Shown piece by piece: positions 24,593 to 30,001 of a stretch of DNA of 64,000 nt. The stretch is taken from NCBI GenBank assembly GCA_021299455.1, contig JAJTGQ010000097.1, forward strand, positions 1 through 64,000, written 5' to 3'. Origin of the DNA: Flammeovirgaceae bacterium. GTDB lineage: Bacteria > Bacteroidota > Bacteroidia > Cytophagales > Cyclobacteriaceae. The notes under the pieces were generated by a model, which was given only the letters and a program-made list of their open reading frames with translations, searched no databases and was not told the origin of the DNA. A program made the position numbers and the translations under genes. Numbering within the stretch: position 1 is the stretch's first letter; each line of letters starts with the position of its first letter.

Positions 24593-25039
24593 CTAGTTTT
24601 TCACCGCCTTCGCCTTTTCAATCGACTCGTTCATTAGGTCTTTGACCTTTTTAATTCTCTCCATTTCAGATTCTAAATAGGCTCTTGCTTTTTCCTGATC
24701 GGCAGAATCCGGGAGAGGTTTGAATAGATGCATCCAATCCATCATGGATTGATCGGCAGAATCCAGCTGAGCAATGACCAGTTCCAATTCTTGCTTTTTA
24801 CCCTCAGCCAACTCTGGACTGCTAGTCAATTTTTCTTGAAGTTCTTTCTTGAGTTGATAAATATCCTCTGCTCGAGGCATAATTTCATCGTGAATATCCA
24901 TCACTTGATCGTACAATGCTTGGTTAGGATTTTCTTCTGAGTTCCCGCCATTGTGGTGATGATCTTCTTGCTTGCCTATTTTAGCGCATGACGCTAGAAT
25001 TGACAAAGAAATAAATAGTAAGGTTTTGAGATTTTTCAT
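24593..25039 (-). CDS. Small lipoprotein, helical, unknown function
   Basis: 148 residues starting MKNLKTLLFISLSILASCAK, with a lipobox LASC. A His/Asn-rich spacer (EDHHHNGGNSEENPN) follows, then heptad-rich helices (ALYDQVMDIHDEIMPRAEDI, ELELVIAQLDSADQSMMDWM, EKARAYLESEMERIKKVKDL). The MDWMHLFKPLP motif is shared by a family of Bacteroidota lipoproteins sometimes mislabelled as viral inclusion proteins. The gene lies just right of the IS. Function unknown. Confidence 0.7.
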   Translation of the reverse strand: MKNLKTLLFISLSILASCAKIGKQEDHHHNGGNSEENPNQALYDQVMDIHDEIMPRAEDIYQLKKELQEKLTSSPELAEGKKQELELVIAQLDSADQSMMDWMHLFKPLPDSADQEKARAYLESEMERIKKVKDLMNESIEKAKAVKN

Positions 25040-25410: not shown

Positions 25411-25540
25411 AATAGAGCTTTTGTAATTCAAATATATGTAATTTTCAAGCTAACGCCAGTTAGGCGTTTAAAATAATGTTCTGTTGTACAACACCATAGT
25501 TGCATATGTCAAGAATTTGCGTTTCCTTCGTTCTATTATT

Positions 25541-25624
25541 ATGAAAATGAAAACTCAGCGATTTTATTTTAGCTTTTATTTTAATCCAGCCCTACCGGGA
25601 TTAGATAGAGAATCGCTTTGTTGA
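25541..25624 (+). CDS. Phe/Tyr-rich leader peptide of the aromatic operon
   Basis: 27 codons, ATG AAA ATG AAA ... TGA, giving MKMKTQRFYFSFYFNPALPG and LDRESLC. Codons 8-14 are Phe-Tyr-Phe-Ser-Phe-Tyr-Phe, so four Phe and two Tyr codons fall within seven positions. The ORF lies just before a terminator and upstream of a prephenate dehydratase gene. This is the arrangement of the pheA leader of enteric bacteria, in which ribosome stalling on scarce aminoacyl-tRNA prevents termination. The short ORF is not in the track. Confidence 0.8.
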   Translation: MKMKTQRFYFSFYFNPALPGLDRESLC

Positions 25625-25684
25625 AAACATAAAAACAAAAGAAACTCAGAAAAGTCCCGGTAAAAGCCGGGACTTTTCTTTTTT
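25582..25684 (+). promoter_or_regulatory. Attenuator: competing hairpins and terminator
   Basis: Segment 1 TAATCC (25582-25587) can pair with GGATTA (25598-25603). TACCGGGA (25593-25600) can instead pair with TCCCGGTA (25655-25662). That same segment forms the left arm of the terminator AAAAGTCCCGG (25650-25660) / CCGGGACTTTT (25667-25677), which is followed by CTTTTTT. The three pairings exclude each other in the 1:2, 2:3, 3:4 manner. Segment 1 begins right after the last Phe codon. High charged Phe/Tyr-tRNA would favour termination. Confidence 0.75.
25650..25684 (+). terminator. Terminator within the aromatic operon leader
   Basis: An 11 bp perfect stem AAAAGTCCCGG/CCGGGACTTTT with a 6 nt loop is followed by CTTTTTT. 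It lies 26 nt after the leader stop and about 74 nt before the prephenate dehydratase start. Confidence 0.88.
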
Positions 25685-25757: not shown

Positions 25758-26600
25758 ATGAGTAAAAAAAGAAAATTGAAAGTAGCCATACAGGGCATTG
25801 CCACTAGTTTTCACGAGGTGGCAGCGCAAACCTATTTTGGAGATTCGATTGAATCTGTTGAGTGCCTATCGTTTCATGCACTTTGCGAATCATTGAAAAA
25901 GGAGGAGTCCGACTTTGCCGTAATGGCTATCGAAAATTCGATAGCAGGAAGTATCCTTCCTAATTATTTCCTTTTGCAGGAATTTCATTTCTCAATTATC
26001 GGGGAAGTTTATCTGCCTATCCATATGCACTTACTGGCTTTGCCGGGCGTAAAGATGTCAGACATTAAAAGCATTGAATCCCATCCAATGGCAATCAGAC
26101 AGTGCAATGATTTCTTGTTTCGGCTTAGGAATGTGGAGATCAGAGAAAGTGATGATACGGCCGTGTCAGCCAGGAAAGTAAAGGAAAATAAACTGACCAA
26201 TACAGCAGCGATTGCCAACGAGCACGCAGCAAAAAAATTCGGATTGCAGATTCTTGAAAAGCGAATAGAAACAAATAAGAAGAATTTTACACGCTTTTTG
26301 ATTCTTGCAAAGGGCAGACAAACGACTCATGATAGTAACAAGGCGTCCCTTTGTTTTGAAGTTGCCAACGAGGTAGGAAGCCTGGCCGAAGCGCTAATGA
26401 CTTTGAAGAAAAACTTGATCAATCTTACAAAGATCCAATCAATACCTATTGTTGGTAAGCCAAGCGAGTATTCCATTCATATTGATGTAGAATGGAAGAA
26501 AAGAAGGAATTATGATACCGCGTTGCGGGAGATTTTGAGGCAAGTAAGGAATTTGAATGTGTTGGGTGAATACAAGAGCGCAAAAATTGAGTACAAGTAG
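25758..26600 (+). CDS. pheA: Prephenate dehydratase
   Basis: 280 residues. The catalytic domain has VAIQGIATSFHEVAAQTYFG, FAVMAIENSIAGSILPNYFL and the TRF motif in NKKNFTRFLILAKG, whose Thr is needed for dehydration of prephenate to phenylpyruvate. A C-terminal ACT domain (about 195-278) has ASLCFEVANEVGSLAEALMT and LTKIQSIPI where ESRP is usual in Phe-binding ACT domains, so feedback control may differ. There is no chorismate mutase domain; that activity is fused to DAHP synthase downstream. It is the first structural gene after the attenuator. Confidence 0.93.
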   Translation: MSKKRKLKVAIQGIATSFHEVAAQTYFGDSIESVECLSFHALCESLKKEESDFAVMAIENSIAGSILPNYFLLQEFHFSIIGEVYLPIHMHLLALPGVKMSDIKSIESHPMAIRQCNDFLFRLRNVEIRESDDTAVSARKVKENKLTNTAAIANEHAAKKFGLQILEKRIETNKKNFTRFLILAKGRQTTHDSNKASLCFEVANEVGSLAEALMTLKKNLINLTKIQSIPIVGKPSEYSIHIDVEWKKRRNYDTALREILRQVRNLNVLGEYKSAKIEYK

Positions 26601-26631
26601 AAAGTGGAATTCTGAACTTTGAATTTTGAAA

Positions 26632-27819
26632 ATGATTGAATTTGCAAATAGAATAAAGAACGTAGAAGAGTACTACTTCAGCAAGAAATTGGCGGTGGTG
26701 AGAAGTATTGATACGCCCGAATGGCGCGTAATCAACCTGGGGATTGGTAGCCCTGACCAGATGCCAGCTACAAATGCGATTGATGCTTTAGTCGTTTCGG
26801 CAAAGAATCCAGCCAACCATGGGTATCAGAACTACAAGGGGATACCGCAACTACGAAAAGCTATTGCGGATTTTTATGTAGACACGTATGATGTATCGTT
26901 GAATGTTGAATCTGATATACTTCCTCTTATGGGATCGAAAGAGGGGATACTTCACACCATGATGGCTTTCGTGAATGAAGGAGATGAGGTATTGATTCCC
27001 GATCCCGGGTACCCAACCTATGCGTCAGTGGCGAAATTGGTTGGCGCCAAGGCAGTTACTTATGACATGAAAGAAGAAGCGAACTGGCAAATCGATGTTG
27101 AGGGTCTTCGAAAAAAGGATCTTTCAAAGGTCAAAATAATGTGGGTCAACTTTCCGCATATGCCAACAGGAAGAATAGCTTCACGCAAGGAATTGAAGGA
27201 CCTGGTTGATCTGGCAAGAGCAAATAGATTTTTGATCGTAAACGACAATCCTTATTCACTCATTTTGAATGAACATCCACTGTCAATACTGAGTATTGAA
27301 GGCGCTGCTGAGGTGGCTCTTGAGCTTAACTCGCTGAGCAAATCACATAACATGGCAGGCTGGCGAATTGGTTGGGTAGCTGGTAATGCACATTATGTCG
27401 ATGCGGTGCTGCGCGTAAAAAGCAATATGGACTCCGGCATGTTTTTAGGATTGCAACATGCTGCCGTGGAGGCATTGAAAAGTGGCAAGGAATGGTTCGC
27501 CAATTTGAATGCGATGTATCAAGAAAGAAAAGATACGGCATGCAAAATTTTAGATGTATTGGGATGCAGCTATTCCACCCAGCAATCAGGTCTGTTTGTA
27601 TGGGCAAAGGCGCCTGTTGGAGTGAATGATGTAGAGAAATGGATTGATGAGATACTCTATGGAACGCATGTGTTCATAACACCCGGATTTATCTTTGGCG
27701 AAACAGGTAGAAGGCATATACGGATTTCGCTCTGCGCAACAGAGGAAAAGCTAAACGAAGCGTGCAACCGAATTCAAGAATTCGTTGACTCTCAAGTCAC
27801 ACAACCACAATCTTTTTAA
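26632..27819 (+). CDS. PLP-dependent aminotransferase (class I/II), probably aromatic
   Basis: 395 residues from ATG 26632 (MIEFANRIKNVEEYYF); the track start is a TTG two codons earlier. The cofactor lysine lies in LNSLSKSHNMAGWRIGWVAG. NLGIGSPDQMP, NPANHGYQNYKGIP and the substrate Arg in RRHIRISLCATE are typical of fold-type I aminotransferases. Between pheA and tyrA it most likely converts phenylpyruvate or 4-hydroxyphenylpyruvate to Phe/Tyr, or prephenate to arogenate; the sequence does not decide. Confidence 0.88.
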   Translation: MIEFANRIKNVEEYYFSKKLAVVRSIDTPEWRVINLGIGSPDQMPATNAIDALVVSAKNPANHGYQNYKGIPQLRKAIADFYVDTYDVSLNVESDILPLMGSKEGILHTMMAFVNEGDEVLIPDPGYPTYASVAKLVGAKAVTYDMKEEANWQIDVEGLRKKDLSKVKIMWVNFPHMPTGRIASRKELKDLVDLARANRFLIVNDNPYSLILNEHPLSILSIEGAAEVALELNSLSKSHNMAGWRIGWVAGNAHYVDAVLRVKSNMDSGMFLGLQHAAVEALKSGKEWFANLNAMYQERKDTACKILDVLGCSYSTQQSGLFVWAKAPVGVNDVEKWIDEILYGTHVFITPGFIFGETGRRHIRISLCATEEKLNEACNRIQEFVDSQVTQPQSF

Positions 27820-27820
27820 A

Positions 27821-28669
27821 ATGAAGATAGCAATAGTTGGATTAGGTTTGATAGGAGGTTCACTCGCCATAGATTTGAGGAGTAAAAAAATCGCAACAAG
27901 GCTGATTGGTGTTGACTTCAATGAAGGACATGCGAGAAAGGCATTAGAACTAGGGTTGGTCGATGAGATTCTTCCAGAGGAGAAGGCGTTTGCGGAATCT
28001 GATGTAGTGATATTGGCTATACCGGTCAACACCATCGGTGCACTTTTGCCCTCCATACTTGATCGCGTAGCAAAAAATGCAGTGGTCATTGATACAGGCT
28101 CCACGAAAAGTATGATCTGCAAGTCTGTGGCCCAACACGACAGACGCGCCCAATTTGTGGCTGCGCACCCAATTTCAGGGACAGAAAACTCCGGACCTAC
28201 AGCCGCTTTGCAAGGATTGTTTGAGGGGAAAACAAATATCATTTGCGAAAAGGAACAATCTTCTGAGTCATCTTTGGCTGTGGCCAAAAACATTTTTGAT
28301 AGCGTGGGAATGAACACGATATTCATGGAGCCAGACGAACATGATAAACACGTGGCTTATGTCTCTCATCTCTCACACGTCAGTTCTTTTTTATTGGGGC
28401 AAACAGTATTGGATATCGAGAAAGATGAAAAGAATATTTTTGACTTGGCGGGTAGTGGTTTTGCATCTACTGTGAGGTTGGCAAAAAGTTCTCCGGCTAT
28501 GTGGGCACCTATCTTTGAGCAGAATTCGGAATATTTAAGTCAAGCGTTGTTGGAATACATCATGCATCTTCAAAAATTTCATTACCACCTGATGAAGAAG
28601 GACACAAAAGAATTGGTCAAGACGTTGACTAATGCAAATGAGATTAGAAGGGTGTTGGATAAAAAGTAA
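27821..28669 (+). CDS. tyrA: Prephenate dehydrogenase
   Basis: 282 residues from ATG 27821 (MKIAIVGLGLIGGSLAIDLR); the track start at 27785 is a TTG inside the previous gene. The Rossmann GxGxxG is VGLGLIGGS. VIDTGSTKSMI and AAHPISGTENSGP (catalytic His) are the prephenate dehydrogenase signatures, and HVAYVSHLSHVSSFLLGQTV follows in the helical C-terminal domain. It makes the tyrosine precursor. It starts one base after the aminotransferase stop. Confidence 0.93.
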   Translation: MKIAIVGLGLIGGSLAIDLRSKKIATRLIGVDFNEGHARKALELGLVDEILPEEKAFAESDVVILAIPVNTIGALLPSILDRVAKNAVVIDTGSTKSMICKSVAQHDRRAQFVAAHPISGTENSGPTAALQGLFEGKTNIICEKEQSSESSLAVAKNIFDSVGMNTIFMEPDEHDKHVAYVSHLSHVSSFLLGQTVLDIEKDEKNIFDLAGSGFASTVRLAKSSPAMWAPIFEQNSEYLSQALLEYIMHLQKFHYHLMKKDTKELVKTLTNANEIRRVLDKK

Positions 28670-28900: not shown

Positions 28901-30001
28901 ATGAAAAAAGGATTGGAACTTGAATCGATTGCTGAATGGTTGGGAGTAAAAAAGCCGATCATTATTAGCGGGCCCTGCAGTGCCGAAACGGAAGAGCAGA
29001 TGGTGGAAACTGCAAAACAAATCGCAGCCACGGGAAAAGTACATGCACTTCGTGCAGGCATTTGGAAACCACGCACGAGACCTGGTCAATATGAAGGTGC
29101 CGGTGATATTGGTTTGAACTGGCTGATGACTGCGAAAAAAGAGACTGGCCTACCGGTAACAACGGAAGTGGCAAATGCGGCACATGTGGAAGCAGCACTG
29201 AAAGCAGGCGTGGATATTTTATGGGTAGGTGCCCGCACCACAGTCAATCCTTTTTCGGTACAAGAGATTGCTGATTGTTTGAAAGGCGTTGACATTCCTG
29301 TGATGGTAAAGAATCCAGTTAATCCTGATCTTGAGTTATGGATAGGCGCACTGGAGCGACTGAACAAAGCGGGCATCAAGAAGATGGCTGCCATCCATCG
29401 TGGTTTTTCATCTTTTGAAAAAGGCCCATTCCGCAATTTGCCAATGTGGGATTTGGCCATAGAATTGAAAACGAGATTTCCGGAATTGGAGATGATCTGC
29501 GATCCAAGTCACATCTCGGGCAATCGAGAATTGATCGCCTTTGTTTCACAAAAGGCACTTGACTTGGATATGGCTGGCTTGATGATTGAAAGTCATATTA
29601 ACCCAGATGCTGCATGGAGTGATGCGAAGCAGCAAGTGACACCAGCTGTGTTGGCTAAAATATTGTCTGAGTTGGTTGTACGCACTGCGTCAAGTGAAAG
29701 TAAAACGTTCAAGGATACACTGAGCATGTTGCGCGAGCAGATTGACCAGCTTGATGATGAGATTATGCAAAAGATGTCTTCACGCATGAAGATTTCTGAG
29801 AAAATTGGACAATACAAGAAAGATAACAACGTAACGATCTTACAGGTAAACCGTTGGGAGGAAATTATAAAAACACGGGTATCTCTCGGAAAGGCAATGG
29901 GGTTGGAAGAGGGTTTCATGCGCGATCTGCTGCGTCTAGTGCACCATGAATCAATTCAAGTACAGACAAAGGTGATGAACCAAATCGAAGAAAGGGTGTA
30001 G
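28901..30001 (+). CDS. Bifunctional DAHP synthase / chorismate mutase
   Basis: 366 residues. Residues 1-270 are a type I-beta DAHP synthase of the KDSA-like fold: PIIISGPCSAETEEQ, LRAGIWKPRTRPGQYEGAG, PVTTEVANAAHVEAAL, ICDPSHISGNRE and MIESHINPDAAWSDAKQQVT. Residues about 275-360 are an AroQ-type chorismate mutase (LREQIDQLDDEIMQKMSSRM, KISEKIGQYKKDN, VNRWEEIIKTR). The enzyme joins the entry step of the shikimate pathway with its branch to prephenate. The mutase domain may act as the feedback sensor, as known in related fusions. Confidence 0.93.
   Translation: MKKGLELESIAEWLGVKKPIIISGPCSAETEEQMVETAKQIAATGKVHALRAGIWKPRTRPGQYEGAGDIGLNWLMTAKKETGLPVTTEVANAAHVEAALKAGVDILWVGARTTVNPFSVQEIADCLKGVDIPVMVKNPVNPDLELWIGALERLNKAGIKKMAAIHRGFSSFEKGPFRNLPMWDLAIELKTRFPELEMICDPSHISGNRELIAFVSQKALDLDMAGLMIESHINPDAAWSDAKQQVTPAVLAKILSELVVRTASSESKTFKDTLSMLREQIDQLDDEIMQKMSSRMKISEKIGQYKKDNNVTILQVNRWEEIIKTRVSLGKAMGLEEGFMRDLLRLVHHESIQVQTKVMNQIEERV

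Follow-up and report, generated by a model that had tools for sequence, protein, structure and literature searches.

Is the short interval in front of pheA in this Flammeovirgaceae genome a ribosome-controlled switch for aromatic amino acid synthesis, and if so, does it belong to a single locus or to a more general mode of control in Bacteroidota? The window considered here is the whole stretch of DNA that was analysed (64,000 nucleotides of contig JAJTGQ010000097.1), and its positions 25541–25684 had been read in a first-pass annotation as a classical phenylalanine/tyrosine attenuator. A short open reading frame (ORF), three mutually exclusive RNA pairings (1:2, 2:3, and 3:4) and an intrinsic terminator formed by the 3:4 pairing were all found in this interval, on the forward strand. 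Judged by comparative sequence analysis, the element is very probably a ribosome-mediated transcription attenuator that senses charged tRNA-Phe and tRNA-Tyr.

Leader, operon and competing pairings

The element lies upstream of genes that make the amino acids it is proposed to sense, all on the forward strand: pheA, coding for a stand-alone prephenate dehydratase (25758–26600; PF00800, E 1.7e-55), a class I/II aminotransferase (26626–27819; PF00155), tyrA for prephenate dehydrogenase (27785–28669; PF02153/PF20463, with NF006307 above its cut-off) and a DAHP synthase/chorismate mutase fusion (28901–30001; PF00793 and PF01817). The upstream neighbour, an ORF at 24593–25039, is on the opposite strand, and the terminator therefore belongs to the leader of the pheA operon. 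A probable Bacteroidota promoter was placed at 25499–25530 (forward strand), with GTTGC as the −33 box (25499–25503) and TTTCCTTCG as the −7 box (25522–25530); the latter deviates from the consensus, and the position matches clear TTTG / TAnnTTTG boxes in relatives. The −7 box starts about 25–30 nt before the leader start codon, both in the window (25499–25547) and in relatives, so the leader would have a very short 5′ untranslated region and be translated almost from the 5′ end of the transcript. Bacteroidota largely initiate translation without Shine-Dalgarno sequences.

The leader peptide ORF (MKMKTQRFYFSFYFNPALPGLDRESLC) extends over 25541–25624 on the forward strand, from an ATG at 25541 to a TGA at 25622–25624, and has the 27 codons and the FYFSFYF run reported for it earlier. 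The second ATG (25547) is the only start conserved in relatives, which makes 25 codons the likely length. The run occupies codons 8–14 (25562–25582, forward strand), so that this short ORF has many codons for the amino acids that the operon produces. In substitutions between similar leaders, which are descriptive counts from non-independent pairs, 102 changes within the run were synonymous and 59 non-synonymous (63% synonymous vs. 11% expected, as random single changes in these codons are synonymous in 4 of 36), 22 of the 59 replaced one aromatic codon with another, and outside the run 90 of 379 were synonymous. On this codon evidence the run is under purifying selection at the amino acid level, acting on its Phe/Tyr identity. 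At least two Phe plus at least two Tyr codons were present in 79 of 83 leaders, and this mixture, read from the codons, would make the leader a two-product sensor.

Four RNA segments on the forward strand account for the competing structures. Segment 1 (TAATCCAGCCC, 25582–25592) begins with TAATCC (25582–25587) and pairs with segment 2 (25593–25610; TACCGGGATT at 25593–25602 plus GAG) through GGATTA at 25598–25603. Segment 2 can pair with either segment 1 or segment 3. Segment 3 (CTC...AAGTCCCGGTA, 25645–25662, including TCCCGGTA at 25655–25662) serves as both the 3′ half of the antiterminator and the 5′ half of the terminator, of which segment 4 (GCCGGGACTTTTCT, 25666–25679) is the 3′ arm. 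The terminator stem (25648–25679) counts 14 bp, 7 of them GC, and is directly followed by TTTTT, the hairpin with its T-run covering 25648–25684; the fold of the whole stretch had z = −3.25. The TAATCC/GGATTA helix, the 2:3 pairing overlapping it and the terminator sharing segment 3 could thus all be located where the first-pass annotation had proposed them, and two further helices exceed that description. The 1:2 hairpin has a second, outer stem, GCGATT (25558–25563, forward strand) with AATCGC within 25600–25620, whose 5′ arm consists of the codons just before the run and at its start; it was seen in the fold, and in relatives it shows GC/CG/AU covariation, for example as CCGATT/AATCGG. The antiterminator gains a second helix between GAG (25608–25610) and CTC (25645–25647).

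All three pairings were found to covary in an alignment of 58 sequences, with the caveat that the events were counted in related sequences and are not independent: 3:4 had 99.8% of cells paired and 34 two-sided changes, 2:3 had 91.5% and 16, and 1:2 had 81.2% and 48. Each of them exceeded all 500 column shuffles as well as every register slide, both in cells paired and in covariation score. For the outer stem, 73.5% of cells were paired, a figure that probably underestimates the pairing, as the clades are not aligned in the same register and the Ohtaekwangia-type AACACA/TGTGTT stem is shifted. The 2:3 duplex reached p ≤ 0.05 in 80 of 83 loci, and segments 2 and 3 fitted best within their own sequence class: leaders of the CCCGG class gave −14.4 kcal/mol with their own segment 3 and −8.3 with that of the CCCGCC class, while CCCGCC-class leaders gave −13.3 kcal/mol with their own and −8.2 with the CCCGG-class segment. 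Conservation of the leader ORF and of the alternative pairings in relatives was the check on which the earlier reading had been staked; the leader and the three pairings are conserved in the same order and covary, which supports a Phe/Tyr attenuator.

Spacing and the proposed switch

Between the end of the run and segment 2 there is a median of 9 nt (10–90% range 7–13). The ribosome footprint reaches about 12 nt past the codon being read (PMC4833913), and with a gap of about 9 nt, a ribosome stalled at the last Phe/Tyr codons would therefore mask segment 1 and leave segment 2 free, while one stalled at the first Phe/Tyr codons would hide the outer arm. When the window sequence was folded stepwise, the 1:2 hairpin formed at −16.5 kcal/mol before segment 3 appears; with segment 1 masked, the antiterminator formed at −20 to −22 kcal/mol from about 25661 to 25670, reaching −22.3 kcal/mol around 25664–25670, when segment 4 is still incomplete. 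The same procedure applied to 83 loci led to 2:3 in 80 of them with masking, and to 1:2 in 82 without it. With a stalled ribosome in place, 3:4 is still the favoured pairing of the full-length RNA at equilibrium, and the switch would therefore have to work kinetically, like that of trp.

From these features we infer translation of the leader, stalling within the run, and read-through in the following order. Transcription would start just upstream of the leader ORF. With Phe-tRNA and Tyr-tRNA plentiful, the ribosome would pass FYFSFYF, 1:2 would pair, segment 3 would be free to pair with segment 4 and transcription would end at the T-run. If either tRNA ran short, the ribosome would stall in the run, its body covering segment 1 as well as the outer arm; segment 2 would then capture segment 3 ahead of the synthesis of segment 4, and the genes from pheA through the aminotransferase and tyrA to the DAHP synthase/chorismate mutase would be transcribed. 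In the window, some 18 nt separate segment 2 from the stop codon downstream of it. A ribosome that has reached the stop would thus leave segment 2 uncovered, unlike in trpL, and in clades of this type termination would have to rely on ribosome release followed by re-formation of 1:2. Among the loci compared, the stop codon was found anywhere from before to after segment 2.

Distribution and alternative readings

A Phe/Tyr-rich leader with a terminator precedes pheA in 83 distinct Bacteroidota loci. Further loci from a phylum survey had the leader in 26 of 26 and the leader plus terminator in 24 of 26, and in another 20 loci the corresponding counts were 20 and 17. The scan of pheA relatives recovered runs such as FYFSFYF, FYFYYFF, FFYNFYYFFF, YFWFYYYYF, and FYFSNSFYFFF, from Cytophagales and other groups; leaders were present in Cytophagales, Solitalea (Sphingobacteriales), Carboxylicivirga and other Bacteroidales, Saprospiraceae, Crocinitomicaceae, and additional families, with the same aromatic genes behind pheA in nearly all relatives. 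A cultured relative, Ohtaekwangia koreensis (L061), is among those with the same leader. Under comparable criteria, the leader–terminator combination was absent from all 20 loci with a bifunctional-type pheA and from all 20 taken in distant Bacteroidota groups, and among 20 loci of the same family with an approximately 40%-identical pheA (L167–L186) it was convincing in just one (L181). By this comparison, presence of the device follows the type of pheA within the family. Across both same-family sets (L167–L186 and L187–L206), where pheA is bifunctional or approximately 40% identical, the leader is missing almost always. Close to one of the pheA loci (L218, 3714–3791) lies a Flavo-1 RNA (RF01705, 71 bits).

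These data bear on three other explanations. That a Phe/Tyr-rich ORF arose by chance in AT-rich DNA beside an ordinary terminator is suggested by the abundance of TTT and TAT codons in such DNA and by dinucleotide shuffling of the 300 nt upstream of pheA, where a short ORF with at least six F/Y in nine codons arose in 6 of 1000 shuffles (0.6% for this upstream region). The same criterion was reached by 81 of 83 distinct related loci against 19 of 996 shuffles, the loci with bifunctional-type pheA and those from distant groups lack the combination altogether, and the terminator cannot be attributed to the upstream ORF on the other strand; chance is already refuted by conservation across Bacteroidota, and we assign it a negligible probability. 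A plain RNA regulator, be it a riboswitch, a T-box or a protein-bound terminator/antiterminator, in which the ORF is incidental, would fit the terminator/antiterminator pair taken alone and would agree with the conservation of part of the 3′ end of the ORF as RNA. We hold it to be very unlikely, since the run is selected at the amino acid level, the ORF and its F/Y richness are kept in relatives even where the RNA sequence has changed completely, the distance to segment 2 fits a ribosome, and the Rfam search gave neither a riboswitch nor a T-box.

A short aromatic peptide upstream of a regulated operon also recalls TnaC, where a free amino acid or another ligand makes the nascent peptide itself stall the ribosome that is translating it. 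Arrest peptides of the TnaC/ErmC kind require fixed residues, whereas in the leaders of relatives F, Y, and W interchange freely, the run varies in length and the C-terminus depends on the clade; the logic of the fold is moreover that of read-through upon starvation, and we consider such an arrest highly improbable.

Wider amino acid control and known systems

Upstream of the leader and its promoter, the inverted repeat CTAACgccaGTTAG (25450–25463, unstranded) forms a conserved, operator-like dyad, CTAAC-N4-RTTAG (as DNA, CTAACGCCAGTTAG). Of 83 loci, 62, including nearly all of those from Cytophagales, have a dyad scoring at least 8 of 10 at 78–113 nt upstream of the leader ATG, while shuffled sequences produced 3.6% at score 8 and none at 9–10. 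The perfect dyad has a single copy in its own genome, at 25450–25463. In other Cytophagales genomes the dyad stands shortly before orthologous genes for the isobutyryl-CoA mutase IcmF, a branched-chain aminotransferase (ilvE), and cystathionine beta-synthase, the last also in the genome of the window, and it occurs near an aspartokinase and an amino acid permease as well (several genera; loci L234, L237, L243–L245, L247–L249, L251, L253, and L256). Its recurrence points to a probable operator of an amino-acid-responsive factor governing a putative, undescribed regulon.

Other leaders were found in the same genome. Upstream of hisG (L118) the leader MKNTQNIHHHHLASGLLVGFMF contains HHHH and upstream of trpE (L122) the leader MKNVNTMMWWWHKSNFDRCMAAF contains WWW, each followed by a terminator and conserved in the genus; in the his and trp leaders tested, the Rfam threshold was not reached. 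An aspartokinase gene of bifunctional length in this genome (L297) is preceded by MENRYSFTSLQVIATGITTITTIITG, a Thr/Ile leader with GITTITTIITG, and at locus L235 the Thr/Ile leader peptide PTIITTTTIITG likewise stands before a thrA-like gene. The terminator scan found none at these two Thr/Ile leaders, where attenuation may act differently. As a further attenuated gene, ilvD was considered and dropped, having no leader within 500 nt upstream. Given Phe/Tyr, His, Trp, and Thr/Ile leaders in one genome, we lean slightly towards attenuation being a general control of amino acid biosynthesis in Bacteroidota, with the Phe/Tyr leader as an either-or sensor that in Cytophagales would be layered on the CTAAC-N4-RTTAG regulon. 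The same design before pheA across Bacteroidota orders, together with strong codon selection, implies a widespread and probably old form of amino acid control. The leaders also lend themselves directly to use as reporters of Phe/Tyr starvation, and their ORFs and terminators, so far unannotated, could be entered both in genome annotations and in Rfam.

At the gathering threshold, Rfam returned no match in the window. Below it, the enteric Phe leader model (RF01859) aligned over its whole span with 38.1 bits (E 4.9e-5), and its gathering score of 55 bits was not reached by the best of the relatives tested either (41.7 bits). Common to the window and the enteric pheA leader (pheL) are a short Phe-rich leader ORF, the 1:2/2:3/3:4 architecture, an intrinsic terminator and pheA downstream. 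The regulatory codons of pheL specify Phe alone, whereas those of the window are mixed Phe and Tyr, its operon serves both branches, Phe and Tyr, and includes DAHP synthase, and its promoter is of the Bacteroidota type. The enteric ilvGMEDA and thrABC leaders are multivalent: their codons stand for several amino acids made by the same operon. The present leader resembles them in sensing several end products, but it is aromatic rather than branched-chain or Thr/Ile, and its sequence is unrelated.

Closer in phylogeny, leader-peptide attenuation was reported upstream of amino acid biosynthesis operons in Flavobacterium psychrophilum, a member of the same phylum, where, as far as the available text of that study goes, structured 5′ elements before pheA and hisG lack Rfam hits, their conservation is noted within Flavobacteriaceae, and neither a leader sequence nor competing structures are given (PMC9723704). 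Long 5′ untranslated regions with short ORFs reminiscent of leader peptides are described in Bacteroides thetaiotaomicron (PMC7366714). The Bacteroid-trp RNA motif (RF01692; PMC2864571) is a cis-regulatory RNA of Bacteroidetes linked to trp by name; it had no match in the genome of the window, although a WWW leader precedes trpE there. The earlier remark that this kind of control is far better documented in gammaproteobacteria than in Bacteroidota is fair, but the F. psychrophilum elements and the Bacteroid-trp motif keep it from being absolute. The distribution in Bacteroidota appears wide and largely undescribed, and a 2010 survey (Lopatovskaya et al., cited in PMC4833913) may include members of the phylum. 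The mechanism itself is already known from enteric pheL, trpL, and ilvL; what would be new, on the comparisons made here, is that it extends across the phylum, that it would sense Phe as well as Tyr, and that a conserved operator-like site upstream is common to other amino acid genes.
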